A stretch of DNA of 64,000 nucleotides from Gallionella sp. (lineage in GTDB: Bacteria > Pseudomonadota > Gammaproteobacteria > Burkholderiales > Gallionellaceae), in NCBI GenBank assembly GCA_017880865.1, contig JADGRL010000006.1:1-64000 (forward strand), written 5' to 3'. Under the pieces are notes generated by a model, which had not been told where the DNA came from, searched no databases, and saw only the letters and a program-made list of their open reading frames with translations. The translations under genes were made by a program, and so were the position numbers. This document shows, piece after piece, positions 419-57,598 of this stretch (position 1 is the stretch's first letter; each line of letters opens with the position of its first letter).

Positions 419-1993
419 TTAGAACTTGAATATACCACCCGCGTACAACAGGCCAGCTGTAGATTTATTGGAAGTTGCATCTCCCACCGGATAGCTATCA
501 AAGCCAACTCGAATACCAAACCTTGAATTGACGTTGTATTGGCCACCCAAACCAAACATCAAGCCAGAATTATTGTGCGTGAAATTTCCTGCAAAGCCTG
601 GCTTGGCCGTTTCTTTCAACGAGGTGCTTGCAATACCCAGCTTGCCAAACAGAGTGAATTGCTGACTGAGCGCGTAATAGCCAACACCGCTTACCCCAAT
701 AGAGCTACCCTTGAGTGTACTCTTTGTACTATCAAATCCACCTAGGCTGTTGTATTCAGCTTCTACGGCAAAATTTTCGTTGATGGCATAGCCACCCAAC
801 AAACCGAATCCTATTTGGCCGTTATTAGTGATATTGCTGTAGCGATAGTTAACGCTACCCAGCTGGGCACCTACATAAAAGCCCGTTGCACCATCTACTG
901 GTGCTGGTGTTAGAACTATTGCTGGTGCTGGTGCTGGTGCTGGTGCTGGTGCTGGTGCTGGTGCTGGTGCTGGTGCTAGAACTATTGCTGGTGCTGGTGC
1001 TGGTGCTGGTGCTGGTGCTAGAACCATTGCTGGTGCAACGGGTTCCTCAACCACAGCTGTGATGCCAGCCGCCTGAGGTTTCTGCGCAGCCTGGGCTTCC
1101 TTTACTCTGGTTTTTTTGGCGACACCTTTGGATTTTTTAGCCACATTTTTCACGCCGGATTTCCTGGCGACACTTTTTACGGCGGATTTTCTGGCAAGAG
1201 TATCCAGCGATTCGAAAGTGTCAGCAGGCGCTGCCGAAATGGTGGTGGTTGGTGCATTGGTTGAAGCGGTCAGCGCGGTCTGCCCGGCAGTGCTTACCGT
1301 TGTGCCAGCCGCATTGGTCATGCCTATACCGCCCGACACCACATTGGTATACACAGTCTTTTTGTCCTTCTCAACCACGACCGAAAACTCGGTGCCGCGT
1401 ACATCAATCGTTCCGCTCGGTGTTGTCAGCTTGAACGCCTTATGATTTTGCTGCCCAATTCTGCCGGTAACAAAACGCAATCCACCCTGAGTTATCGCAT
1501 AATCAATATTATTGTTGCCGGATTGCTTGGGGTCGTAACGATAATCACGTACCTCTAAAGTAGAATTAGGCTGCATGAAAACGATTTGATCATCGTCAAA
1601 TATCAGAACGGCATAACTGTCATCTCCAACATTGATAACTGAACCGGATACCACCCTATCGCTCTTTGATGCGCGACGAGTATCATCCCCAACGTTCGTG
1701 ATCGAAACCTCCCCGTCGATCTTAAAAAAGCGCCCGCCCGCCGCCTTGACCAAGTCCACAGCACTTTGAGCAGAAGAAGATCCAACAGTGGCAGTGGCGC
1801 TAATTGCAGAAGCAGGCGCAACGACAGAGACGACTTTTAGCACTGACGCACTATCGCTAACCACTGGCTTTACGGCATTAGCCTGATCTTCATTTTTCGA
1901 ATGGCTGGTGGCTTCCGGACTAGTACCTAATAACTTCCAGGCAAGTAACCCGACTACCACTACCAGAATCGCCAATACACTTATTTTTTTCAT
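419..1993 (-). CDS. FecR-domain protein with Ala/Pro-repeat linker and C-terminal outer-membrane beta-barrel
   Basis: ORF 524 aa; signal-anchor N-terminus, FecR-like core (TTPSGTIDVRGTEFSVVV), (AP)n linker, barrel GFYVGAQLGSVNYRY...GGIFKF ending in aromatic F. Confidence 0.85.
   Translation of the reverse strand: MKKISVLAILVVVVGLLAWKLLGTSPEATSHSKNEDQANAVKPVVSDSASVLKVVSVVAPASAISATATVGSSSAQSAVDLVKAAGGRFFKIDGEVSITNVGDDTRRASKSDRVVSGSVINVGDDSYAVLIFDDDQIVFMQPNSTLEVRDYRYDPKQSGNNNIDYAITQGGLRFVTGRIGQQNHKAFKLTTPSGTIDVRGTEFSVVVEKDKKTVYTNVVSGGIGMTNAAGTTVSTAGQTALTASTNAPTTTISAAPADTFESLDTLARKSAVKSVARKSGVKNVAKKSKGVAKKTRVKEAQAAQKPQAAGITAVVEEPVAPAMVLAPAPAPAPAPAIVLAPAPAPAPAPAPAPAPAPAIVLTPAPVDGATGFYVGAQLGSVNYRYSNITNNGQIGFGLLGGYAINENFAVEAEYNSLGGFDSTKSTLKGSSIGVSGVGYYALSQQFTLFGKLGIASTSLKETAKPGFAGNFTHNNSGLMFGLGGQYNVNSRFGIRVGFDSYPVGDATSNKSTAGLLYAGGIFKF
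920..1020 (-). repeat. 6-bp tandem repeat (GGTGCT/AGCACC) encoding (Ala-Pro)n in two blocks
   Basis: gctggtgctggtgct... visible in two blocks separated by agaactatt; encodes APAPAPAP. Confidence 0.95.
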
Positions 1994-2336: not shown

Positions 2337-3596
2337 TTAGAACTTGAATACGCCACCGAAATATAACAAACCAGCGGTAGACTTACTGGAAGCCGTATCT
2401 CCCACCGGGTTTATATTAATGCCAACACGCATACCGACCGCAGGATTGATGTTGTACTGACCGCCAATACCAACTGTCGCCCCGGTGTTGTTGTGCGTGA
2501 AATTCCCAATGAAACCGGGCTTGGCCGTTTCTTTCATTGATGTGCTGACAACTCCCAGTTTTCCAAAAAAGGCGAATTGTGGATTGAGTGCGTAATATCC
2601 AACGCCGCTTACACCAATAGAGCTGCCCTTGAGTGTACTCTTAACGCTGTCAAATCCACCCAGGCTGTTGTATTCAGCTTCTACGGCAAAATTTTCGTTG
2701 ATGGCATAGCCACCCAACAAACCGAATCCTATTTGGCCGTTGTTAGTGATATTGCTGTAGCGATAGTTAACGCTACCCAGCTGCGCGCCAACGTAGAAGC
2801 CTGCGGCCTTATCTGACGCAGAAACAGCAGGAGCTACAATCACTGGCGCTACAACAACGGGGGCGACAACAGGAGGCACACCAGCGACAGTCATGCTAGG
2901 GGCAGCGGTGACGCTATCCTTTAAAGCACTACTTGCCGGCAGTGGTACTGACACAGGTGTGGCAGCAGGCACAGGGATCACAGTGATCTGGCTAAATGTG
3001 TCTGCAGGCAATGAAGCTGCGGGTACCCGCTTGACCAAAACATCGGATGAAGAAATTCGCGCATTGTGACCGGCAGTTAACACGGTCGTCCCTGCCGCAT
3101 TGGTCATCCGAATGCTTCCAGATATTACCTGGCTGTAGGTGACGTTGTTGACAATGACCACCAGAAACTCGGTTCCTTGAACGCTTATCGTGGCATCGGG
3201 AGTGGCGAGCCTGAATGCTTTCGGGTTTAGATGGCCGATTTGCCCGGTGATGAATCGCATTCCGCCCTTAAGCATGGAAAAAACAATATTACTTTTCTTA
3301 ACCTGCTGCGGGTTGTAGATATATTCGCGCACCAACAAGGTTGAGTTGGCTTGCAGGCTGACCACTTGACCATCTTCAAACTTCAACACGGCATGGCTAT
3401 TGTTGCCGGTCCGAACTACTGTGTCTGAATTAACTGCATCGTTTGCTAACGCCGGATGAGGAGCATCTTTGCCAGTGGCAATAGACACCGACCCGTCGGC
3501 GTCATAAATGTAGCCTCCACTGGCCCACGCCAATACCGGAGTGGATGCAATAAAAATGAATGCCGCCGCTCTTACTATATAAAACATCTTGCTCAT
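2337..3596 (-). CDS. FecR-domain protein with C-terminal outer-membrane beta-barrel (paralog of 419..1993)
   Basis: ORF 419 aa; signal peptide, FecR core (ATPDATISVQGTEFLVVI), barrel nearly identical to the upstream paralog. Confidence 0.85.
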   Translation of the reverse strand: MSKMFYIVRAAAFIFIASTPVLAWASGGYIYDADGSVSIATGKDAPHPALANDAVNSDTVVRTGNNSHAVLKFEDGQVVSLQANSTLLVREYIYNPQQVKKSNIVFSMLKGGMRFITGQIGHLNPKAFRLATPDATISVQGTEFLVVIVNNVTYSQVISGSIRMTNAAGTTVLTAGHNARISSSDVLVKRVPAASLPADTFSQITVIPVPAATPVSVPLPASSALKDSVTAAPSMTVAGVPPVVAPVVVAPVIVAPAVSASDKAAGFYVGAQLGSVNYRYSNITNNGQIGFGLLGGYAINENFAVEAEYNSLGGFDSVKSTLKGSSIGVSGVGYYALNPQFAFFGKLGVVSTSMKETAKPGFIGNFTHNNTGATVGIGGQYNINPAVGMRVGININPVGDTASSKSTAGLLYFGGVFKF

Positions 3597-30012: not shown

Positions 30013-31257
30013 CTAAATTAAATCTATCGAAGTTTTTTGCCAGGACTGTATCCATGCGGACAGATCGCCGGCGGGCATCGGGCGGGCGATAAAATAACCC
30101 TGCGCGAGATCACATTCCGTTCTGCGCAGAAAATCCCAGTCTGCCCGGTCCTCTACCCCTTCCGCCACGGTCTCCATGCCTAGTTGCTTCGCCAGGCTGA
30201 GGCTGGAATCAAACAGCGCCCGCAGTGTGTCGTTGGCCCAGGCACCGTGCACGAAACTCTGGTCTATCTTGAGCTCATCGAATGGAATGTCGCGCAACTG
30301 GGCCAGAGAAGAATTCCCAGTGCCAAAATCGTCGATGGATAGTTTGAATCGCTTCAGACGCAACCGGGTCAGGATTTCGAGCGGTGCGCGCGCGTCCCGC
30401 ATCAACTGGCTTTCCGTCACCTCCAGCACCACGCTTTGCGGAGACACGCCCGCTGCGGCGACTTGTGCGGCGACAAAATCTGCAAAATCCAGCGAGGCCA
30501 GATTATCCATGGAGACATTGATCGACACGCGCAACTTCAATCCGGATTCTTCCCAACGCCTGATCTGGGCCAATGCGTTATCCAGCACCACGCGGGTCAG
30601 GTCGTCAATCAGTCCGTTCGCTTCCGCCACGCCGATGAACTGGTCGGGGAACACCATCCCGTCCTGCGGATGCTGCCAGCGCACCAGAGATTCAGCGCCC
30701 ACCACTTCACCCGTGGCGATCACCACCTTGGGCTGGTAATAATTGACCAGTTCGCCGTTGGCGATGGCGGCGCGCACCTCGTCCGCAGTATAAATTTTCT
30801 TTGTCGAATTTTTTTTCGGCGCACCGGAGGAATCGTCTTGCGTCGGCGCCGTCCACTTCTCCAGCAACACCGCCAGCCCTTCCGGCGAGGCTGGCTTGTG
30901 CAGGTGGCCCAGCACCGGAATTTTATGCGCCCGCACCAGCTTCTCGACAGACTGCTGCATGCGTTCATCTTCTCCGCTCACCAGAATGAGGGCACCCGCA
31001 TAATGGTGTTCGACCAGGCGGCGCGCGAACTCGACCCCATCCATCTGCGGCATATTGAGATCCAGCAATATCAGATTCGGTGATCGGTCCGAATCATCAA
31101 CCCGCTCCAGCGCGGCGTGGCCGTTGTCGCAGGTGCTGACCTGGGCGTAGCCGAGGTTCGTCAGCATGCGCGCCAACAGTTTGAGCATGAAGGGCTCGTC
31201 GTCGAGCACCAGCACCCTGACTGCGGATTTGTTATTCACGATTTCACCGGTATCCAT
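30013..31257 (-). CDS. Response regulator with EAL (c-di-GMP phosphodiesterase) domain, catalytic motifs intact
   Basis: REC: VLVLDDEPFMLKLLARML...LILLDLNMPQMDG; EAL: AESLVRWQHP, INVS, EVTES, IDDFGTG, ELKID, METVAEGVE, AQGYFIARP. Confidence 0.95.
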   Translation of the reverse strand: MDTGEIVNNKSAVRVLVLDDEPFMLKLLARMLTNLGYAQVSTCDNGHAALERVDDSDRSPNLILLDLNMPQMDGVEFARRLVEHHYAGALILVSGEDERMQQSVEKLVRAHKIPVLGHLHKPASPEGLAVLLEKWTAPTQDDSSGAPKKNSTKKIYTADEVRAAIANGELVNYYQPKVVIATGEVVGAESLVRWQHPQDGMVFPDQFIGVAEANGLIDDLTRVVLDNALAQIRRWEESGLKLRVSINVSMDNLASLDFADFVAAQVAAAGVSPQSVVLEVTESQLMRDARAPLEILTRLRLKRFKLSIDDFGTGNSSLAQLRDIPFDELKIDQSFVHGAWANDTLRALFDSSLSLAKQLGMETVAEGVEDRADWDFLRRTECDLAQGYFIARPMPAGDLSAWIQSWQKTSIDLI

Positions 31258-32455
31258 TGCTCACCCGCTTATGCCAGTCCGTTATCCAGTCGGGTAATTT
31301 GGCGGCAGGCATAGGCCGGGCAATGAAATTGCCTTGTGCGAGATTGCAGCCTGTGCTGCGCAACAGATCCCAGTCGCCCAGGTCTTCCACCCCTACGGCG
31401 ACGGTTTCCATGTTCAATTCCCTTGCCGTGGCCAGACCGGTGTCATATTCCGCTCGTATTGTGACGTCGGTGCATACGCCATGCATGATGTTCCGGTCTA
31501 TTTTAAGTTCGTCAAAGGGAACATCGCGCAACTGGCTCAGGTTGGAATGCCCGGTGCCAAAGTTGTCAATCGAAAGCCGAAAGTGCTTGAGACGTAGACG
31601 TGCCAGCGTTTCCAGCGGCACGCGCAGCTCCTTCTGCAACAGGCGAGCTTCCGTCACTTCCAGCACCACCTGCTGCGGCGGCACATCGGCCCTGGCCGCC
31701 AATTCGGCGGCAGTATCCGCAAAATCCAATGATGCCAGGTTATCCATGGACACATTGACCGCCAGTTGCAGCGACAGTCCAGCCTTTTGCCAAGCCTGTG
31801 CCTGGGCCAGCGCGCTGGTCAACACCACACGGGTCAGGTCGTTGATCAGATCGTGTGCTTCCGCCACGCCGATGAACTGATCCGGCAACACCATGCCGTC
31901 CACAGGATGGTTCCAGCGCACCAGTGTTTCCACCCCCATCACCCGTCCGGTCTCGACATCGACCTTGGGGTGATAGTAATTGACCAGCTCGCCGTTGGCG
32001 ATCGCTGCGCGCAGCTCATCAGCACCATAAATTTTCTTCGTCGTCCCGTAATCCGGTTGCGATGGCGTGGCCCACTTCGCCAGCACGGCCATCAGAGCTT
32101 CCGGCGTCACCGGCTTGTCCAGACGGCCCAATAATTTTATTTTGTACGCCTGTATCATTTTCTGAGTGGTCTGCAACACGTGCTGATCTTCGCCGCTCAC
32201 CAGAATGAGGCTGCCGGCGTAACGCCGCTCGACCAGCTTGCGCACGAACTCGGTCCCGTCCATTTGGGGCATGTTCAAATCCAGCAAAATCAGATTGGGA
32301 GAGTCGGGACCATCAAACAACGCCAGCGCTGCATGTCCATTGTCGCAAGAGGTGATCGAAGTAAACCCCATGTTCGCCAGCATACGTGCCAGCAACTTGA
32401 GCATCGTGGGTTCATCGTCGAGCAGCAAAATATTGATCGCAGTTTTTTTGGGCAT
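31244..32455 (-). CDS. Response regulator with degenerate EAL domain (paralog of 30013..31257)
   Basis: REC: ILLLDDEPTMLKLLARML; EAL motifs altered: IDNFGTG, METVAVGVE, AQGNFIARP; start placed at MPKKTAINI. Confidence 0.93.
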   Translation of the reverse strand: MPKKTAINILLLDDEPTMLKLLARMLANMGFTSITSCDNGHAALALFDGPDSPNLILLDLNMPQMDGTEFVRKLVERRYAGSLILVSGEDQHVLQTTQKMIQAYKIKLLGRLDKPVTPEALMAVLAKWATPSQPDYGTTKKIYGADELRAAIANGELVNYYHPKVDVETGRVMGVETLVRWNHPVDGMVLPDQFIGVAEAHDLINDLTRVVLTSALAQAQAWQKAGLSLQLAVNVSMDNLASLDFADTAAELAARADVPPQQVVLEVTEARLLQKELRVPLETLARLRLKHFRLSIDNFGTGHSNLSQLRDVPFDELKIDRNIMHGVCTDVTIRAEYDTGLATARELNMETVAVGVEDLGDWDLLRSTGCNLAQGNFIARPMPAAKLPDWITDWHKRVSNGYR

Positions 32456-32499
32456 GATTTCTTTCTTTTTATTCCCGTTCTCTCCAAAGGGGAGCGCGC

Positions 32500-35196
32500 C
32501 TATAACTGATCCAGATAATTGTTCACGGCGGACATTTCCGCCTCGAAGCGGGGCAGCAACGCGGCCAGTTCTGCGGTCTGCCCCGCCTTGCCCGCCTGTT
32601 CCATTTCGGCGCACAACTCGCTCAAAGCCAGCGCGCCTACCGAGCGCGCCAATGACTTGAGTTTATGCGCCGCAGCAACACCTGCCGTATTACCTGTCGC
32701 GCAGGCAGTGCGCAGTTCCGTCGCAATTTTATCCGCACTGATGCGGAAGCCTTTCAGGAACTCGGCTATGGTCGCCTTATCGTCGCCTATTAATGCCTTG
32801 AGCACGTTCACGTCAACCGGCACGGACTCGGCGGTAACGGGCAGCCATTTTTCCAGCATCGCTTTCAGGTTGGCCAGTTGCACCGGCTTGCTCAGATAAT
32901 CATCCATGCCAACTTCGCGACAGTGCTCGGCCTCGCCCTTGAGGGCATTGGCGGTGAAGGCGATGATAGTTGTGCGTGGTTTGCCGGCTTCACGGGTCTT
33001 TACCTCACTGGCTCGTATGGCAGCAGTCAGCTCATAGCCGTCCATCTCCGGCATGTGCAGGTCGGTGAGCAGCAGACGGTAATCGCCGCTTTGCCACAGT
33101 TCCAGCGCCTCGCGGCCATTGCCTGCGATGTCTGCCGTTTGGCCGAGCAACTTGAGCTGTTGCAGGATGACTTTCTGGTTGATCTCATTGTCTTCGGCGA
33201 TCAGGATCAAGCGGCCCTGCTGGCGCGCCTCTGCGCGCGACAACGGTGTGGGCGTCTTCCCGGTGCCATCGGGCAGGACGCTCAGGTCTTGCTTCTTGAT
33301 TCGTCCGGCGGCAATCAAAACCGCCTCCAGAAATGCTTTGCGGTGCATGACCTCTGCGTCCAGAGTAACCTGGTCGGCAGCTTCAACCCGGCACTGCCGG
33401 CGTTTGCCGCGCCCGATGATAACGAAACGAACATCCAGTCCGGTTCGGGTGCTTGCAGCAGTGCGTAATCCATCCAGTAGCGAATTGAATTGCGGCGAGT
33501 TGGCGTCCGGTGTGTCGATGACCACGACGCACAATCCGGGCTGGCGGCGATCTATCCATTGCCGGGCGGCCGCAACGTCTTCTGCTTGCTCGACTGGCGC
33601 GCCGTCATGCGCGAGATAAGCGGCCATGTCCCCAGCCATGCTGTCCGCGCCGCCCACCACCAGGCAGCACAGTCCGGCGACCGGCGAGGGTGGTTTATCG
33701 ACGTCGGGTTTTTCCATCGGCAGCGCGAACGGCAGGCGCACAGTGAACACGGCGCCCTTGCCCGGTTCGCTCTGCACAGCGATTTCGCCGCCCATCATCT
33801 CCACCAACTGGCGGCAGATGGCCAGCCCCAGCCCGCTGCCGCCAAAATTCCGGGTGGTGGACGTGTCGGCCTGGGTGAAGGGAGTAAACAGCCGTGCCTG
33901 GGTTTCCGCATCAATGCCGATGCCGTTGTCGGACACGCGAAACTCCAGCTGGATTTGTTTAACATCGCGAAGCGATTCATTCGCCTCCCCGCCCGCAATC
34001 GGGAGAAGATTGAGGAGAGGTAAACGGCTCTGCCCGTCTGCTGTACCTTCAGCCAACAGGGCGCGCACCGACACCTGTGCTTTTCGACCCTGTCCGCTGG
34101 AAAATTTGATGGCGTTGTTCGCCAGGTTGACCAGTATCTGGCGCAGCCGACCGGGGTCGCCGAGTACCCGTGTGGGCAGGGACGGATCGGTGAACAGGTT
34201 CAGCTCCACCTCTTTTTTCAGAGCCAGATGATCCAGTGTTTCGCATACTCCCTCCACCACGTTGGCGATATTCATTGGCAGGCTTTCAATCTGCAACTTG
34301 CCTACTTCAATCTTGGAGAAATCGAGAATGTCGTCAATCACGGCAAGCAGAGCATATGCCGAGTCGTGGATAATATTGCTCATTTCCATCTGTTGGGGAT
34401 TAAGGCTGCTCAATTGCAGCACGTCTATCATGCCGATCACGCCGTTCATCGGTGTGCGTATTTCGTGACTCATCGCGGCGAGGAAATTCGACTTCGCCTT
34501 GTTGGCTTGCTCGGCATCACGCCGTGCCTGCTCGAGATCGGCCATGTTGCGCAGCCGCACCAACCCATCTTGTTCGAGGCGACGGTTGGCTTCACCCAGT
34601 GTGATGTTGAGCTGTTGCAACTCATTCTTTGCGCGGCTCAGATCTTCATTTCGCTGGATGGCGGCGTCATAGGTGGAGAGCAATAGGTTGAGTATCTGCA
34701 AACGGTCGGACGCGATGAAATGCTTCTGCCCCTTGAAGAATATTTCCACTCCCATGCCCGCTTGGTCGGTCTGGCGCATTTCGGTGTTCAGCAGCAAGAA
34801 CTTCACGCGATTCAGCAGGTATTGGTCGTCATAGGGTTTGAGGATGAAGTTGTCCGCGCCGCACTCCAGCCCTCGAATCACGTCCTGCGCATCGGAAAGC
34901 GTGGTGACCAGAATGACCGGTACATCCTTCAATTTTTTATCGGACTTGATCGCCTTGCACAATTCGTAGCCGTCCATTTCCGGCATCATGATGTCGCTGA
35001 TTAGCAGAGTAGGTTTTTGCGCCTGTGCTGCTTGAAGAGCCAGCTTGCCGTTGGCCGCAATGGTTACCTGATAACCGTGCTGCTCGAGCATAAAACCGAG
35101 TTGCTCGGCCTGGGTGCGGCTGTCTTCTGCGATGAGTATTGTAGGTGTGATAAGAGTGTGATCGCCATTTTTCTTGTCCTGCTCCTCGGATTTCAT
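32500..35196 (-). CDS. Hybrid sensor kinase: REC-HisKA-HATPase-REC-Hpt
   Basis: [98 protein letters not shown]. Confidence 0.95.
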
Positions 35197-50910: not shown

Positions 50911-50950
50911 CACAACGAACAAGCCCGCGATAGCGGGCTTGTTCGTTGTG
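50911..50950. terminator. Bidirectional terminator between purB and the FecR-domain gene
   Basis: CACAACGAACAAGCCCGC-GATA-GCGGGCTTGTTCGTTGTG, 18-bp perfect stem between convergent genes. Confidence 0.9.
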
Positions 50951-50973: not shown

Positions 50974-51819
50974 TCAGAAAACAATCGGGGCTACGGTCAC
51001 ACCTGTAGTCGCCCCACCACCTGTTCCACCTTTAATCGGTATTTGAATCGGTCTTCCCGGCACGGCATTTCCTGGAGCGTGGCTTGGGTCTTGAATAGCG
51101 TTATCCACTACCGCATTATCACGCACCGCCCCCTTATCACCCTTCGCTTGCGGCATTGGTGCCGGTGTCACGGTGAAAATATTGAGGTTAACCGGTTGCA
51201 GTTGCGGCATTTGCTTTAACCCGCCGACAAAGCCCATCTGGTTAGGCAGAATATTGATCGTGCCTTTGTCCGTCGTCATGGTGGTCTCGCCAACATTCAC
51301 CTTATTGTAAGTCCCGGCCGGCACGGTTGCCGCCAATTCACTGCCTGGCACAACGACGAAGGTTTCGTGGTCGGTGCCGCGAATGCCGATAGTCGATGTG
51401 GGTGTGGCAATCCGATAATTACTCTTATTCTTCTGCCCGATCAGTCCGGTAATGGTACGAATACCGCCTTTGATCAATGAGAAGAAGCTTCTTTCACTTC
51501 CGTCTTGTTCACCGCTGTATACGAAGCTGTCGAACTTGAGTTGTGAGTCCGGTCGTATGACGATGAAGCCACCATCCCGCATCTTGATCTGTGCGGAAGC
51601 GCCTTTGGCAGTAATCACCGTATCGCTTTCGTGGACCACATCACTTTTTTGCACAGCATGTGTCTGCCCTGCAGCATTGCTTACCCGAACGCTGCCAATC
51701 GCAAACTGAACATCCCCGGCAATCCCCGCGTATGCGGCCTGGCTCAACACCACCAAGCTAGCCATCAGCGAGCTTTTTAAAAAATTAATCATATATTTTG
51801 CGGCAGTCATGATTTGCAC
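50974..51819 (-). CDS. FecR-domain exported protein
   Basis: AGIAGDVQFAIGSVRVSNAAGQTHAVQKSDVVHESDTVIT...IATPTSTIGIRGTDHETFVV. Confidence 0.88.
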   Translation of the reverse strand: MQIMTAAKYMINFLKSSLMASLVVLSQAAYAGIAGDVQFAIGSVRVSNAAGQTHAVQKSDVVHESDTVITAKGASAQIKMRDGGFIVIRPDSQLKFDSFVYSGEQDGSERSFFSLIKGGIRTITGLIGQKNKSNYRIATPTSTIGIRGTDHETFVVVPGSELAATVPAGTYNKVNVGETTMTTDKGTINILPNQMGFVGGLKQMPQLQPVNLNIFTVTPAPMPQAKGDKGAVRDNAVVDNAIQDPSHAPGNAVPGRPIQIPIKGGTGGGATTGVTVAPIVF

Positions 51820-51834
51820 CTCACTCGAGTTAAA

Positions 51835-53259
51835 TCACCGAAAATCACGGCGAATAGTCAATGAAACATCGATCCTGTTATAGCCATAAATCACGATATT
51901 GGAATTATTCTTTGCGTAGTTCAGTTGCGGACGCAGCGTCCACAACTTGTCCCAATGCCAGTTCGTCCCCATCGTCAGATCATACAGGCGATCACTGCGT
52001 TTCCTCAGGAACAGCAGATTGACCTTACTGTAATTGCCTGTCTGCACACCCGCGTCGACAAACAGCGTCATTTTGTCGGTGTAAGCTGTCTGGCCGCCAA
52101 CACGCAATCCGCTTAAACGTTTGGCACCGTCGCTTCGTCCGCCATTGGGCGTAGCCGGTGTGATCAGCGTCGAAATGTCATTTTCCTTGCCATAATACAG
52201 ATCGCCGAACAGCGACGATTTCCCGCTCGCCAATACATGCAGCCAGTTGCCGCCAATAACCTGCTGATTGAAGTCATTCGGTTGCATGACCACATCGGCA
52301 TAACGATATTTCGCTTGCTGAATAAATACGTTCGATTGATTACCCGGGCTGAACTCATGATGCCATTCGCCGATGAGTCCGGTGATATCGCTGTTGCGCG
52401 CATCGCCCAAACTGTTCTGCCCGCCCAAGATGCCGAAGCGCAAGCGATCGGCTTTCGCGCCAAACATCACTCCGGCTCGTGCATCCAGGCCGAGCGTATC
52501 GAAACGCTGCTGTGTACTGTTGCGGCGCTGCCGCAGATTCGCCCCTGCATATACACCCCAGTCGGCATTCAGCCTGCGCGTGATTTCGCCGCCGGCGTTC
52601 ACCCCATAGTAATTATCTGAAGTTTTAACGTTGGCCGGATCGAGCGTGACGACACTTGCCGGTGCATCGACAAATACCTGAGAAAGGCTGGTGGAGTAAT
52701 TGACGTTGGTATCATGTCCCAGCACTCCCTCGACATATCCGGAGATGCGCGTCTGTTTTCCTGCTCCCTGCGCCGCGATTTCGTCCAGATATTTTTCAAT
52801 GTTGGCACGTGCCATTTCAGAAGGGTTTTGCGTCAAGGCCGTTACAAATTCGGTTTTTGCGCGCGGCAGATCACCCAGTTGATAATAGGCGCGCGCCATG
52901 TCCAACCGTGCCGCAGCAGAATCAGGATTTACCAGCAAGACCCGCTCGAAGGCGAGCGTCGCCTTATCAGGCTTACCGCTGTCCAGTGCGGCAATACCGA
53001 TCAGATAGTCAAAACGCTCTTCACCGGAATGCTCAAACTCGAGCGGCTCCAGCAAGGTATAGGCATCGGCAGATCTGCCGCTTTTTACCAGGGCCTCGGC
53101 TTCACCCATCAGCTTCTCATAGTCCTTGACGCCGACCGGCTTACGAACTATCGGCTCGGCACGCTGGCGCGTCTTCTGCTCCGCTTCCAGCGCATGGACT
53201 CCGTTTGCTGCCGACATCAATCCTATGAATATCAAGGTTGCTGATTTTGTGAATTTCAT
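51835..53259 (-). CDS. TPR protein with C-terminal outer-membrane barrel (Slam/DUF560-like)
   Basis: Signal peptide; TPR ATLAFERVLLVNPDSAAARLDMARAYYQLGDLPRAKTEFVTALTQNPS; barrel ending YGYNRIDVSLTIRRDFR. Confidence 0.75.
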   Translation of the reverse strand: MKFTKSATLIFIGLMSAANGVHALEAEQKTRQRAEPIVRKPVGVKDYEKLMGEAEALVKSGRSADAYTLLEPLEFEHSGEERFDYLIGIAALDSGKPDKATLAFERVLLVNPDSAAARLDMARAYYQLGDLPRAKTEFVTALTQNPSEMARANIEKYLDEIAAQGAGKQTRISGYVEGVLGHDTNVNYSTSLSQVFVDAPASVVTLDPANVKTSDNYYGVNAGGEITRRLNADWGVYAGANLRQRRNSTQQRFDTLGLDARAGVMFGAKADRLRFGILGGQNSLGDARNSDITGLIGEWHHEFSPGNQSNVFIQQAKYRYADVVMQPNDFNQQVIGGNWLHVLASGKSSLFGDLYYGKENDISTLITPATPNGGRSDGAKRLSGLRVGGQTAYTDKMTLFVDAGVQTGNYSKVNLLFLRKRSDRLYDLTMGTNWHWDKLWTLRPQLNYAKNNSNIVIYGYNRIDVSLTIRRDFR

Positions 53260-53305
53260 GATTTCAACCCGGTGATATTCGTCCCCTGTTAGTCATAAAG
53301 TGCGG

Positions 53306-54844
53306 CTAGGATTTGCATTCAAGGGCATCATTATCGACGCCTTGATGAGTCTGTGTATCTGGTTGGACAGACTGGTCTTTGGTGACCGACTGGTCTGGGG
53401 TTTCCGACTCCGGCACGCACGCTACAGGAGCTGGCACTGGTGCGGGTACAGGTGCCGGCACCACTGCCGCAACAGGCCACGAGAGTTTGGTCGCCACAGG
53501 GTACGCATAGGAAACCGCATTCCACGAAATTCCATAATCATAGATCAGCGCACTATATGCAACCGTTCCGGCGAGGGAGTGCGCGCCGGCCGTGACCGGG
53601 ATCGTGCCCACCGAGTAGATGCTGGTGCCGCCCATCGGGGTGAACAACGCCGCATTAACCGCGACGGTGTCCAGCTTCAGAGTTGCCAGCGCGGCGGTTT
53701 CGGTGACGACGTTCATGAATTCCCCCGTAGTTCCGGCAAGGCCATGTACGCCGAACGTCGCGTTGGTCATCCCCATTTCGGCTGGCGTAACCAGAACCAT
53801 GTTCGGGTCGCCTTTGAACGCTGTATCGTCTGCATAACCGCGCATGAATTGAGCCACCATCACAGGGTTATTGGACACGAACTCACCGGCTCCGGTCAGG
53901 ACGACATCCACGAATTGACCGGCATTCAATGTCCCGGCAATCAGACCGGCAGGCATCGTGGCAACAGTGGTGCCGTTCTGGGACGCGATGACGCGCACCG
54001 TATAACGCGCACGGCCGCTGAACAACGAGGTGTGGTAAATCTTGCCCCAGATAGACACATCGGTAAGCTGCTCGACAAGATAGTCGCAGTAACCGGTGCC
54101 GGACGGTATATCGGTACAACGATGGCCGCTGAACACGCCAACGGGCTTATCGGCCGCCACCAGCGTACCCGTCATATCCGCGTTCGCCGGATTTGCAAAC
54201 TGGTAGGTTTCTCCGATATTCAACATGACCGTAAATGCGGCACCGGCTGGCTTGGTCGCACCGGCAGCGGTAGGCGTGATGGTGACCGTGGTGGCGTTCT
54301 GAGTGGCGACCACGGCGAATTCCGACCCGGTGTATCGGGTGCTGGCATAAGACATCACATAATATTGTGTTCCGAGGCCGGGTGTCGGCAAGGCCAAATA
54401 ACCGTCAGCAGAAGTTGCATTTTCAGAAACCACATACACCGAGACGGGCGATAACGCCGTCACGTGGATACCCTTGGCTTGAACCGTCTCGTTCGCCGTC
54501 AGCACCACGGCAGGATCGAGCGTGATCACGGTCTGGGCATTTGCCGCAACCGAAAAGGGCGTAGTCACACCGTTAAATATCACATTGCCTGTGGTCGCGA
54601 CTGCCGCAGCCACAATCATCTTGTTGGTAACGGGCGTGTTATTGCATGAGGCGGGATTGCTGACACAAAGATGGTCGGGCAGCGTTAAATAGAAATCTGT
54701 CCCCGCTGAGGTGATGACAGGTGCGAGAGCTGCGACTGGGGCGGCAACTTGAGTCGCAGCTTTACCGCCACCACCGCACGCGGTCAAAATTAACGATGCC
54801 AGAAACAACACGCTTTGAAAAAGTTTTGTGTTATCTGAACGCAC
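53306..54844 (-). CDS. Lipoprotein with IgGFc-binding-like N-terminal domain
   Basis: GTG start after AGAGAGG; lipobox LTACGGGG; GTDFYLTLPDHL...ATTGNVIFNGVTTPFSVAANAQTVITLDPAVVL...IHVTALSPVSVYVVSE...YVMSY pattern. Confidence 0.75.
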   Translation of the reverse strand: MRSDNTKLFQSVLFLASLILTACGGGGKAATQVAAPVAALAPVITSAGTDFYLTLPDHLCVSNPASCNNTPVTNKMIVAAAVATTGNVIFNGVTTPFSVAANAQTVITLDPAVVLTANETVQAKGIHVTALSPVSVYVVSENATSADGYLALPTPGLGTQYYVMSYASTRYTGSEFAVVATQNATTVTITPTAAGATKPAGAAFTVMLNIGETYQFANPANADMTGTLVAADKPVGVFSGHRCTDIPSGTGYCDYLVEQLTDVSIWGKIYHTSLFSGRARYTVRVIASQNGTTVATMPAGLIAGTLNAGQFVDVVLTGAGEFVSNNPVMVAQFMRGYADDTAFKGDPNMVLVTPAEMGMTNATFGVHGLAGTTGEFMNVVTETAALATLKLDTVAVNAALFTPMGGTSIYSVGTIPVTAGAHSLAGTVAYSALIYDYGISWNAVSYAYPVATKLSWPVAAVVPAPVPAPVPAPVACVPESETPDQSVTKDQSVQPDTQTHQGVDNDALECKS

Positions 54845-54926
54845 GGGATACCTCTCTACTTCATATTTAAACGCTGTAGGGAACAAATGATTAATGCGAG
54901 GGATGCATACGGACGAACATCCGTAT

Positions 54927-55005
54927 CGCAGTCCCGCTACCATAGCTTCCCTTAGGCCGGTGACTTTGCGTCCTTACCTTTCGATAAGTTTGCCAAGTGG
55001 TGCAG
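54927..55005 (-). ncRNA. Cyclic di-GMP-I riboswitch (GEMM-I)
   Basis: Minus strand: CTGCACCACTTGGCAAACTTATCGAAAGGTAAGGACGCAAAGTCACCGGCCTAAGGGAAGCTATGGTAGCGGGACTGCG; GAAA tetraloop on CTTATC/GGTAAG stem, GGACGCAAAG core, CCTAAG...TATGG tetraloop receptor, GTAGCGGG. Confidence 0.95.
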
Positions 55006-55034
55006 ATTATTTAGATAGGCACGAATAGAGTCAA
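55006..55034 (-). promoter_or_regulatory. Possible sigma70 promoter ahead of riboswitch
   Basis: TTGACT - 17 nt - AATAAT on minus strand; spacing leaves the transcription start close to the aptamer 5' end. Confidence 0.4.
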
Positions 55035-55141
55035 AGTCTACCCGACGAGTGGTTGAGTTAACGGACGAGCGGCAAATTTGACAAGCAGGCTGCTGGTTGC
55101 CCATACCCCATCCAAAGCCATGCTGCTACTGGCAACACGCC

Positions 55142-55177
55142 AAAACAAACAAGCCCGCAAGCGGGCTTGTTTGTTTT
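55142..55177 (-). terminator. Terminator after FecR-domain gene 55189..56124
   Basis: AAAACAAACAAGCCCGC-AA-GCGGGCTTGTTTGTTTT perfect stem. Confidence 0.9.
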
Positions 55178-55188
55178 AAAACCGCAGA

Positions 55189-56124
55189 TCAGTGCCGTGG
55201 CTCAGTTACGCCTTCTGTGTGGATCGTGTTGGTACCAGAATGCTCTGTGGAGGGTGTTAGCGAAGTAGCGCCCTCCCCTCCGGTTTTGTTCGTCGTCGTT
55301 TCATGCACTTCGATTTTGTCCACCGTCGCCGTTTCACGCATTTCGTTTTTATCCGTCGTCGCAGTTCCACGCATTTCTCTGGAACCTTCTCGGCCACTTT
55401 CCTTGCCAGCCTCTCTGCTACCGTCCCGGGCACCCTCCTTGCCACCTTCATGCTTGTCACCACCGGCTTGCGATGCAGGCTGGGCGGCTACCGTGAAGAT
55501 ATTGAGGTTAATCGGTTGCAGATGCGGCATTTGATCGGTCGCACCGGCAAAACCCATCTGGTTGGGCAGCACGAAGACCGTGCCCTTCTCGGTCGTCATG
55601 GAAGTCTCGCCCATATTCACCTTGTTATAAGTGCCGATGGGTGCCGTTGCCGTCAATGAGCTTTCCGGCGTGACCACAAATATTTCATGATCCGTACCGC
55701 GAATGCCGATGGTTGTTGCGGGCGTGGTAATGTGATAATTGACTTTATTCTCCTTCCCGATCAAGCCGGTAATGGCGCGAAAGCCGCCTTTGAACAAGGA
55801 GAAAAAGCTCCGTTCAGTGCCGTCTTGATGTCCATTGAAGGTGAAACGGTCAATCTTGAGTTTGGTGTCGGAGCGCATCGCGATGATGCCGCCATCTTCC
55901 ATCCTGATTTGCGCGGAGGCGGTTTGTGTGGAGATCAACGTATCGCCTTCGTTAACCACATCGCCTTTCCTGATCGCATGCGTCACGCCGGTGGCGGTCG
56001 TCAACTGAACCGTACCGTGCACGAACTGTACTCGCCCCGCGACTGCGGCATAAACACTGCCGCTATTACTGACCAGTACCAGCAGCGTAATCAGACTGAG
56101 CAACGCTTTAATAAAGTTTTTCAT
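55189..56124 (-). CDS. FecR-domain exported protein (paralog of 50974..51819)
   Basis: VAGRVQFVHGTVQLTTATGVTHAIRKGDVVNEGDTLIS...ITTPATTIGIRGTDHEIFVV; charged repeat tail. Confidence 0.88.
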   Translation of the reverse strand: MKNFIKALLSLITLLVLVSNSGSVYAAVAGRVQFVHGTVQLTTATGVTHAIRKGDVVNEGDTLISTQTASAQIRMEDGGIIAMRSDTKLKIDRFTFNGHQDGTERSFFSLFKGGFRAITGLIGKENKVNYHITTPATTIGIRGTDHEIFVVTPESSLTATAPIGTYNKVNMGETSMTTEKGTVFVLPNQMGFAGATDQMPHLQPINLNIFTVAAQPASQAGGDKHEGGKEGARDGSREAGKESGREGSREMRGTATTDKNEMRETATVDKIEVHETTTNKTGGEGATSLTPSTEHSGTNTIHTEGVTEPRH

Positions 56125-56146: not shown

Positions 56147-57598
56147 TTATTTGAAATTGCGCCGTATCGTCAACGAAATATCGGTACGGTCATAGCTATA
56201 CGCGGCCACATTCGACATATTATTAAAACGCGTCAGTTGCGGGCGCACCGTCCATAGATTATCCAGATACCAGTTCGCTCCCAACGTCCAGTCATCCAAT
56301 TGGTCGGTGCGCTGACCGGAAATTGTCGTGTTGACCTTGTCGAAACTGCCGACTTGTACGCCTGCACTGAAAAACAGTTTCGCTATATCACCGATGGCCG
56401 CTTGCGCGCCGACACGAAATCCGCCGAAACGCTTGACCCCATCGACTCGCCCACCGTTGGGATAGGCCAGCGAGACCGGCCCGACATCATTCTCAACTCC
56501 AAAATACAAGTTACCGGACAGCGTCGACTTCGCGTCGGCCAGCACATGCAGCCCGCCTACACCCGCAGCCAGCTGATTGATGTCATTTGCCTGCATGACC
56601 GTATCGAGATAGCGATATTGCACATACTGGCCGAATACATTCACCTGATTGCTGGCACCCACCGCATGGCGCCATTCCCCATTGAGGCCAGAGGTGTCGC
56701 GATCACGCGCGCCGCCCAAGGTGTGCTGCCCGCCCGACACGCCCAAACGGAACCAGTCGGCACCCGTGCCATAAATAACGCCTGCGCGTCCATCTAGGCT
56801 AAACGCATCAAAACTTTTTTGCTTGTAGTTGCCGCGCTGGTTCAGATCCGCTCCCGCATACAATCGCCAATTGGCATCCGGGCTGTGATTGATTTCGCCC
56901 CCCGCCGCCACGCCATAATAATTATCGACTAACTCCACGCTGTTCAGATTGAGGGTTGGAGTCACGATATTGTTCGGAATTTCGGAAGCGTTGTTGACGT
57001 TAGTGTCGTGCCCCCCGGTTCCCTCAATATAGCCGCTGATGCGCGTCTGCTTCCCGCTTTCCTGCCCGGCAATGTTATCCAGATACTTCTGGATCGTGGC
57101 TCGCGCCGCGTCAGAAGGATTTTGTCTCAACACGGTTTCAAATTCGGTCTTGGCGCGCGGCATATCGCCCAACTGATAATAAGCGCGCGCCATGTCCAGA
57201 CGCGCACCGGCATACTCCGTATCCACCGCCAGCACCCGCTCGAAGGCGAGCGTCGCCTTGTCCGGCTTGCCGCTATCCAACGCGGCAATGCCGATCAGAT
57301 AATCGAAGCGCACCTCGCCCGAACGCTCGAACTCAAGCGGCTCCAGCAGATGATAGGCATCGGCAGGTTTGCCCGCTTTCATTAGGGCTTCGGCATCGCG
57401 CAACGGTTTTTCGAGCGCTTCACTCTCAGCCGGGCTCAGCGCCACTGGTTCGGCAAGCTCGGGCGCAGGCTGTCCGGCTGCTGCTGGCAGGGCTTCGGGT
57501 TGCACGGTTGCAGTTGGCATGTCTTCTTGCGCATAAACCCCGCTTGCCGCCAGCAAAAATCCTGCGCACACCCAACTTGCCGATTTAACAAATTTCAT
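56147..57598 (-). CDS. TPR protein with C-terminal outer-membrane barrel (Slam/DUF560-like), paralog of 51835..53259
   Basis: Start MKFVKSASWVCAGFLLAASGVYA; TPR nearly identical to the paralog; barrel ending YSYDRTDISLTIRRNFK. Confidence 0.75.
   Translation of the reverse strand: MKFVKSASWVCAGFLLAASGVYAQEDMPTATVQPEALPAAAGQPAPELAEPVALSPAESEALEKPLRDAEALMKAGKPADAYHLLEPLEFERSGEVRFDYLIGIAALDSGKPDKATLAFERVLAVDTEYAGARLDMARAYYQLGDMPRAKTEFETVLRQNPSDAARATIQKYLDNIAGQESGKQTRISGYIEGTGGHDTNVNNASEIPNNIVTPTLNLNSVELVDNYYGVAAGGEINHSPDANWRLYAGADLNQRGNYKQKSFDAFSLDGRAGVIYGTGADWFRLGVSGGQHTLGGARDRDTSGLNGEWRHAVGASNQVNVFGQYVQYRYLDTVMQANDINQLAAGVGGLHVLADAKSTLSGNLYFGVENDVGPVSLAYPNGGRVDGVKRFGGFRVGAQAAIGDIAKLFFSAGVQVGSFDKVNTTISGQRTDQLDDWTLGANWYLDNLWTVRPQLTRFNNMSNVAAYSYDRTDISLTIRRNFK

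Follow-up and report, generated by a model that had tools for sequence, protein, structure and literature searches.

The cassette and its gene products

The system described here lies on the minus strand of the window, by which we mean the whole stretch of 64,000 nucleotides (nt) analysed from contig JADGRL010000006.1 of a Gallionella sp. In this iron-oxidising bacterium, an aptamer of the GEMM-I family for cyclic diguanosine monophosphate (c-di-GMP) is followed by a gene for a lipoprotein with an IgGFc domain, a gene for an outer-membrane barrel with tetratricopeptide repeats (TPR) and a SlipAM (Slam/DUF560) domain, and a gene for a FecR-domain protein, the whole forming one predicted operon (Table 1). 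An initial annotation of this DNA had proposed the same aptamer-headed gene set, which was borne out by Rfam, Pfam and the order of the open reading frames (ORFs). The gaps of 46 nt between the lipoprotein and barrel genes and of 24 nt between the barrel and FecR genes hold no terminator-like site in a simple scan. The terminator with which the annotation closed the unit is visible in the sequence as a hairpin of GC core and U-rich 3' arm, lying between the unit and the convergent purB gene; the simple scan does not list it.

The first gene product had been annotated as an IgGFc-like lipoprotein, and this description holds: the match to PF17517 (IgGFc_binding) reaches 219.7 bits against a cut-off of 25.6 and spans the whole profile, and the lipobox Cys is invariant in nine orthologues of the lipoprotein. 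Translation most likely begins, as had already been proposed, with the GTG codon at 54844, which is preceded by the Shine–Dalgarno sequence GAGAGG; a longer frame opening with an ATG at 54943 begins within the aptamer and is the less likely choice. Behind the IgGFc domain, the protein consists of a linker and a short Cys-flanked tail, and then ends. The two Cys of this C-terminal tail are conserved in the orthologues. The stretch between them holds much His and Asp in several orthologues (L074, L098, and L100) and less in the window (53306–53430); for an iron oxidiser this suggests possible metal binding, as a lead only. A PDB sequence search with the IgGFc protein returned nothing useful. Across 184 further genomes from the class, a single one has the domain over the cut-off and one more gives a weak match, a rarity that would fit a horizontal gain. 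More distant IgGFc proteins, non-lipidated and about 35% identical, were found without barrel or FecR at two loci (L072 and L073, in genomes G008 and G052), where they adjoin a gene with a PEP-CTERM-like end.

The placement of the second gene product in the Slam/DUF560 family is likewise supported. SlipAM (PF04575; cut-off 22 bits) is the only full-length barrel family above cut-off for this protein and is present in 29 of 31 relatives, and an AlphaFold model with a predicted local distance difference test (pLDDT) score of 83.2 has TPR helices (44–167) followed by 14 long strands. Slam itself has been described as a TPR domain plus a predicted 14-stranded barrel (PMC5449769). A weak similarity to EpsL was also seen at the C-terminus of the barrel.

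As for the FecR-domain protein, the annotation had remarked that a FecI partner is missing, and no sigma factor gene was found among the neighbours when the ORF list was read by eye. A role as anti-sigma factor was rejected on this observation (made by eye and not by profile), on the signal peptide and on the long relatives described below. Directly upstream of the riboswitch cassette lies a tandem paralogous pair of barrel and FecR genes (57595–55189), which had not been connected with it. Since this pair is closed by its own terminator hairpin, the riboswitch cassette is probably transcribed separately from it. A PDB sequence search with the FecR pair gave nothing useful. The flanking genes, also read by eye from the ORF list, are Nudix, mnmA, purB, radC, and coaBC.

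Table 1. Features of the riboswitch cassette, its leader and the adjacent paralogous pair in the window.
Feature	Position	Strand	Evidence or remark
Terminator-like hairpin, GC core, U-rich 3' arm	about 50911..50950	-	Read from sequence, absent from the list of the simple scan; between the unit and convergent purB
Short FecR-domain protein, signal peptide, disordered tail	50974..51810	-	PF04773 40.7 bits
TPR + SlipAM (Slam/DUF560) outer-membrane barrel, 474 aa	51835..53259	-	TPR_19 E 5.1e-12; PF04575 34.7 bits
IgGFc-domain lipoprotein, 512 aa, GTG start, lipobox LTAC	53306..54844	-	PF17517 E 6.5e-65
Predicted helix, UUCCCUAC (54883-54876) with Shine–Dalgarno GAGAGG (54856-54851)	54851..54883	-	Consensus fold of nine leaders
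Hairpin directly after aptamer (GCGATACGGA...TCCGTATGC)	54905..54929	-	Kept in nine leaders, with compensatory changes
c-di-GMP-I (GEMM-I) aptamer	54924..55004	-	RF01051 69 bits, E 1.9e-11, full model 1-87
Sigma-70-like promoter TTGACT-17-AATAAT, directly before aptamer	55006..55034	-	Consensus match 10/12
Terminator-like hairpin 3' of second pair, upstream of riboswitch unit	55142..55177	-	Read from sequence
Second short FecR-domain protein	55189..56124	-	PF04773 36.7 bits; 56% identical to first
Second TPR barrel, paralogue of first	56147..57595	-	58% identical; SlipAM 13.6 bits, below cut-off

Relatives of the cassette and the TbpB-like module

The named public genomes in which the barrel has relatives are almost all those of Gallionella or other Gallionellaceae. 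Their gene maps show three layouts, often at one site between radC and purB. In the first, GEMM-I, IgGFc lipoprotein, barrel and short FecR protein (225–285 aa) stand together (the window, L071, L074, and L095–L100); in the second, the barrel is followed by a long FecR protein (about 450–2900 aa); and in the third, which includes the second pair of the window, barrel and short FecR occur without IgGFc. The first layout is complete and in the same order in nine loci from at least two genera of the Gallionellaceae, so that the annotated combination is conserved as a whole. The aptamer is present in all nine IgGFc cassettes and absent from the eight tested loci without IgGFc. On the contig of L100, the first layout is followed by the second in tandem.

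Most relatives have a much longer FecR gene than the window. Its product begins with the FecR domain, continues through a low-complexity linker and carries towards the C-terminus one to six copies of a module of about 230 residues, which often finishes with a sequence like VNGVAAFHR. Searches of Pfam, NCBIfam and PDB sequences with this module returned nothing. An AlphaFold model of the module from 15 relatives (pLDDT 81.7; predicted template modelling score, pTM, 0.81) combines a small sheet with a barrel of about eight strands at the C-terminus, and in a Foldseek comparison with the PDB the best 43 matches are all TbpB, fHbp, LbpB, hemophilin or NHBA, the first unrelated entry standing at rank 44. 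Nearly all of these proteins are known as, or have been discussed with, cargo of Slam or the type XI secretion system (T11SS; PMC7857515). On this predicted fold, the proteins that are headed by FecR and encoded next to a SlipAM barrel are probably cargo of the T11SS. Because the FecR genes of most relatives carry modules of the TbpB-lobe fold, the short FecR protein of the cassette would most likely be cargo or former cargo. The FecR proteins of the window are without the module, and no match to it was found anywhere in the genome.

The association of FecR with SlipAM was followed in the order and in a phylum-wide draw, both of which are made up of the best-scoring loci per search and are no random sample (30 and 27 loci, respectively, three of the 30 coming from the window's own family). 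A same-strand FecR gene lies directly downstream in 20 of the 30 loci of the order and nearby in two more, and at least 14 of the FecR proteins at these loci match the module profile; no FecR gene is found at the five loci with the highest scores, whose appearance is that of classical Slams. Because FecR accompanies only 5 of the 27 further loci of the phylum-wide draw, the link is specific to part of the SlipAM family.

The history of the barrels was examined in a maximum-likelihood tree of 52 sequences, in which the eight IgGFc barrels form one clade (support 100/100). This clade is nested with the short-FecR barrels (99/98), and the long-FecR barrels fall outside. When a ninth IgGFc barrel from another genus was added, all still formed one group (96/100). 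The TbpB-like module occurs nowhere in the short-FecR genomes of the family draw (G000, G057, G025, and G017); the contig of L100, however, has both layouts.

FecR domains are also found in other surroundings. Two adjacent minus-strand proteins of the window (419–1993 and 2337–3596) carry FecR fused to a C-terminal OmpA-like barrel of eight strands (PF04773 with PF13505/PF01389), which again points to FecR domains here being parts of envelope proteins. In some relatives, genes for CHASE2-adenylate/guanylate cyclases lie next to or near barrel/FecR pairs (L076:9640–11877 and L079:6052–7929).

The riboswitch leader

The GEMM-I aptamer of the initial annotation was recovered by the Rfam search with a score well above the gathering score of 35 bits, and it is the sole GEMM-I found in its genome. 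The aptamers of L096 and L074 were detected by the Rfam model and missed by a sequence pattern. In a scan of the region as a whole, promoter-like sites were no more frequent than expected by chance; the TTGAC of the promoter in front of the aptamer stands at the same place in all nine leaders (the window and the other eight). A conserved box (about CCACTCGTCGG) is present in the nine leaders just upstream of the −35 element of this promoter, at about 55036–55050, and is a possible operator. In two other members of the family (G054:C136 and G015:C82), paired GEMM-I aptamers were seen about 2.6 kb apart.

Two predicted structures separate the aptamer from the lipoprotein start. The helix in which a CUCC segment pairs with the Shine–Dalgarno sequence shows few compensatory changes in the consensus fold of the nine leaders. 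No U-tract was seen after the leader hairpins in any of the nine, and an intrinsic terminator was judged an unlikely expression platform. Because of this missing U-tract, control of the leader is more likely translational than by termination. In a crude calculation, enforcing the aptamer left the pairing of the Shine–Dalgarno sequence unchanged or increased it in each of the nine leaders, the changes being small or nil in several; there is on this account a weak lean towards a riboswitch that is OFF at high c-di-GMP, the direction being uncertain.

A possible exchange of secretion cargo and its alternatives

The cassette can be read, with a probability of roughly one half, as a derived, c-di-GMP-controlled variant of Slam-type (type XI) secretion with an exchanged cargo. 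A fuller proposal, offered more tentatively, is that the TbpB-like cargo of this T11SS has been replaced by the IgGFc lipoprotein with its Cys-flanked, sometimes His/Asp-rich tail, in the same barrel lineage and under the riboswitch, and that the variant is part of a wider, apparently undescribed class of FecR-headed T11SS. The simplest order of events would run from a long FecR cargo through module loss to a single gain of riboswitch and lipoprotein. In the ancestral layout, which most relatives still have, the TPR and SlipAM barrel would have been followed by its cargo, a secreted protein headed by FecR in which a long low-complexity linker leads to one to six TbpB-lobe modules at the C-terminus; the FecR protein would have lost its modules in the lineage of the window, and one sub-branch would have gained the GEMM-I riboswitch and the IgGFc lipoprotein gene directly upstream. 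Transcription would now start just before the aptamer, and binding of c-di-GMP would alter the leader and hence the access to the Shine–Dalgarno sequence of the lipoprotein gene. The lipoprotein would be lipidated, carried by Lol to the outer membrane and moved by the barrel to the surface, and the short FecR protein would be left as a co-exported or periplasmic accessory.

Several observations weigh against this proposal. The IgGFc lipoprotein appears to be without the C-terminal eight-strand TbpB-like barrel that directs known T11SS cargo and, because of this, cannot be filed as standard cargo of the system; its surface display may depend on another signal, or may not involve the adjoining barrel at all. 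The barrel model, compared with the PDB by Foldseek, gave generic porins and BcsC and no Slam among the matches listed, and no Slam structure for comparison was found in the PDB, so that the predicted Slam-type identity of the barrel is based on its Pfam family and strand count. The Foldseek E-values of the TbpB-like module are modest (1e-4 to 1e-3), with template modelling scores of 0.3–0.5, and the direction of the switch comes from a crude calculation. Finally, barrel and short FecR pairs exist without IgGFc (the second pair of the window, L077, L101–L104, and L106), and for this reason the barrel has another use or another cargo in that layout.

These pairs also speak for a different explanation, which is on the unlikely side but has to be taken seriously, namely that barrel and short FecR protein work on something else, FecR being the real cargo or a periplasmic plug, and that the IgGFc lipoprotein is co-regulated with them and not moved by the barrel. 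Such an arrangement would agree with the lack of a cargo barrel in the IgGFc protein and with the fact that the gene consistently found beside the barrel throughout the order is a FecR gene and not a lipoprotein gene. On the other hand, the lipoprotein gene stands directly upstream of the barrel gene, in one predicted unit, in all nine cassettes; the barrels of these cassettes form a clade of their own, as expected if the barrel had adapted to the lipoprotein; and the lipoprotein arose only in the lineage with lost FecR modules. In the version of the initial annotation, the FecR protein gates display by the barrel, either as a sensor in the periplasm or as an anchor to the cell wall. This version has become improbable, since in most relatives FecR is the N-terminus of large proteins with the cargo fold. 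The immediate neighbours in the ORF list also include no visible sigma factor and no dedicated regulator. In favour of this version, the cyclase genes near some relatives would suit a sensor, and the two FecR/OmpA-like fusions of the window would place FecR in the periplasm.

Another possibility is that the barrel serves as a porin for exopolysaccharide export, similar to BcsC, PgaA or PelB, with FecR protein and lipoprotein as accessory matrix proteins under c-di-GMP. This second messenger commonly controls exopolysaccharides, BcsC and PelBC are among the best Foldseek matches of the barrel, and the weak EpsL similarity of its C-terminus points the same way. The possibility is nevertheless very improbable: at the loci viewed, the cassette showed no gene for a glycan synthase, the model has 14 strands, SlipAM has no competitor among full-length barrel families over cut-off, and the product of the adjacent gene in relatives bears the fold of T11SS cargo.

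Read as a Slam-type variant with exchanged cargo, the cassette shares with Slam/T11SS (DUF560, PF04575) the TPR N-terminus, the 14-strand barrel, the Pfam family and the adjacent lipoprotein gene (PMC5449769; PMC7857515), and its relatives share an adjacent cargo of the TbpB-lobe fold. It differs in that the presumed ancestral cargo is FecR-headed, with up to six lobes and no lipobox seen in most long forms, whereas the window has a lobe-less IgGFc lipoprotein and a riboswitch. The module of the long FecR relatives resembles TbpB, LbpB, fHbp, hemophilin and NHBA in the predicted fold of its C-terminal part, but has no detectable sequence similarity to them, stands in tandem behind FecR and is absent from the window proteins. 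The aptamer is a full GEMM-I (RF01051) that here heads an IgGFc/Slam cassette, and the whole-profile match to PF17517 is here found in a lipoprotein with a Cys-flanked tail, in a class where the domain is rare. There is also a likeness in concept to LapA-type adhesins with a retention module, since a periplasmic domain at the N-terminus could keep a surface protein in place; the FecR N-terminus has a weak profile similarity to this module (NF033682, 26.6 and 29.5 bits, under the curated cut-off of 50), but the barrel here is of the Slam type and the system there is of type I.

The T11SS surveys compared here make no mention of FecR, and in the open-licence literature no paper was found that joins the FecR domain with DUF560/T11SS, or a c-di-GMP riboswitch with IgGFc; the wider group of FecR-headed Slam/T11SS pairs is apparently undescribed. 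Verification as cargo secretins has so far been limited to seven T11SS outer-membrane proteins, which all come from one animal-associated cluster, and the cargo of a marine cluster has been hard to identify (PMC12282271). A large environmental set would gain a family of candidate cargo, to be recognised for the most part through predicted structure, and with it pairs of barrel and cargo for direct tests. The variant of the window raises the question of whether a Slam barrel can switch to a cargo of another fold and, if the proposal is true, would provide a direct link between c-di-GMP and surface lipoprotein display in iron-oxidising bacteria. The window also encodes two tandem response-regulator proteins with EAL domains, possible c-di-GMP phosphodiesterases (30013–32614, minus strand), which sit in a large cluster of chemosensory and hybrid-kinase genes about 20 kb from the riboswitch.

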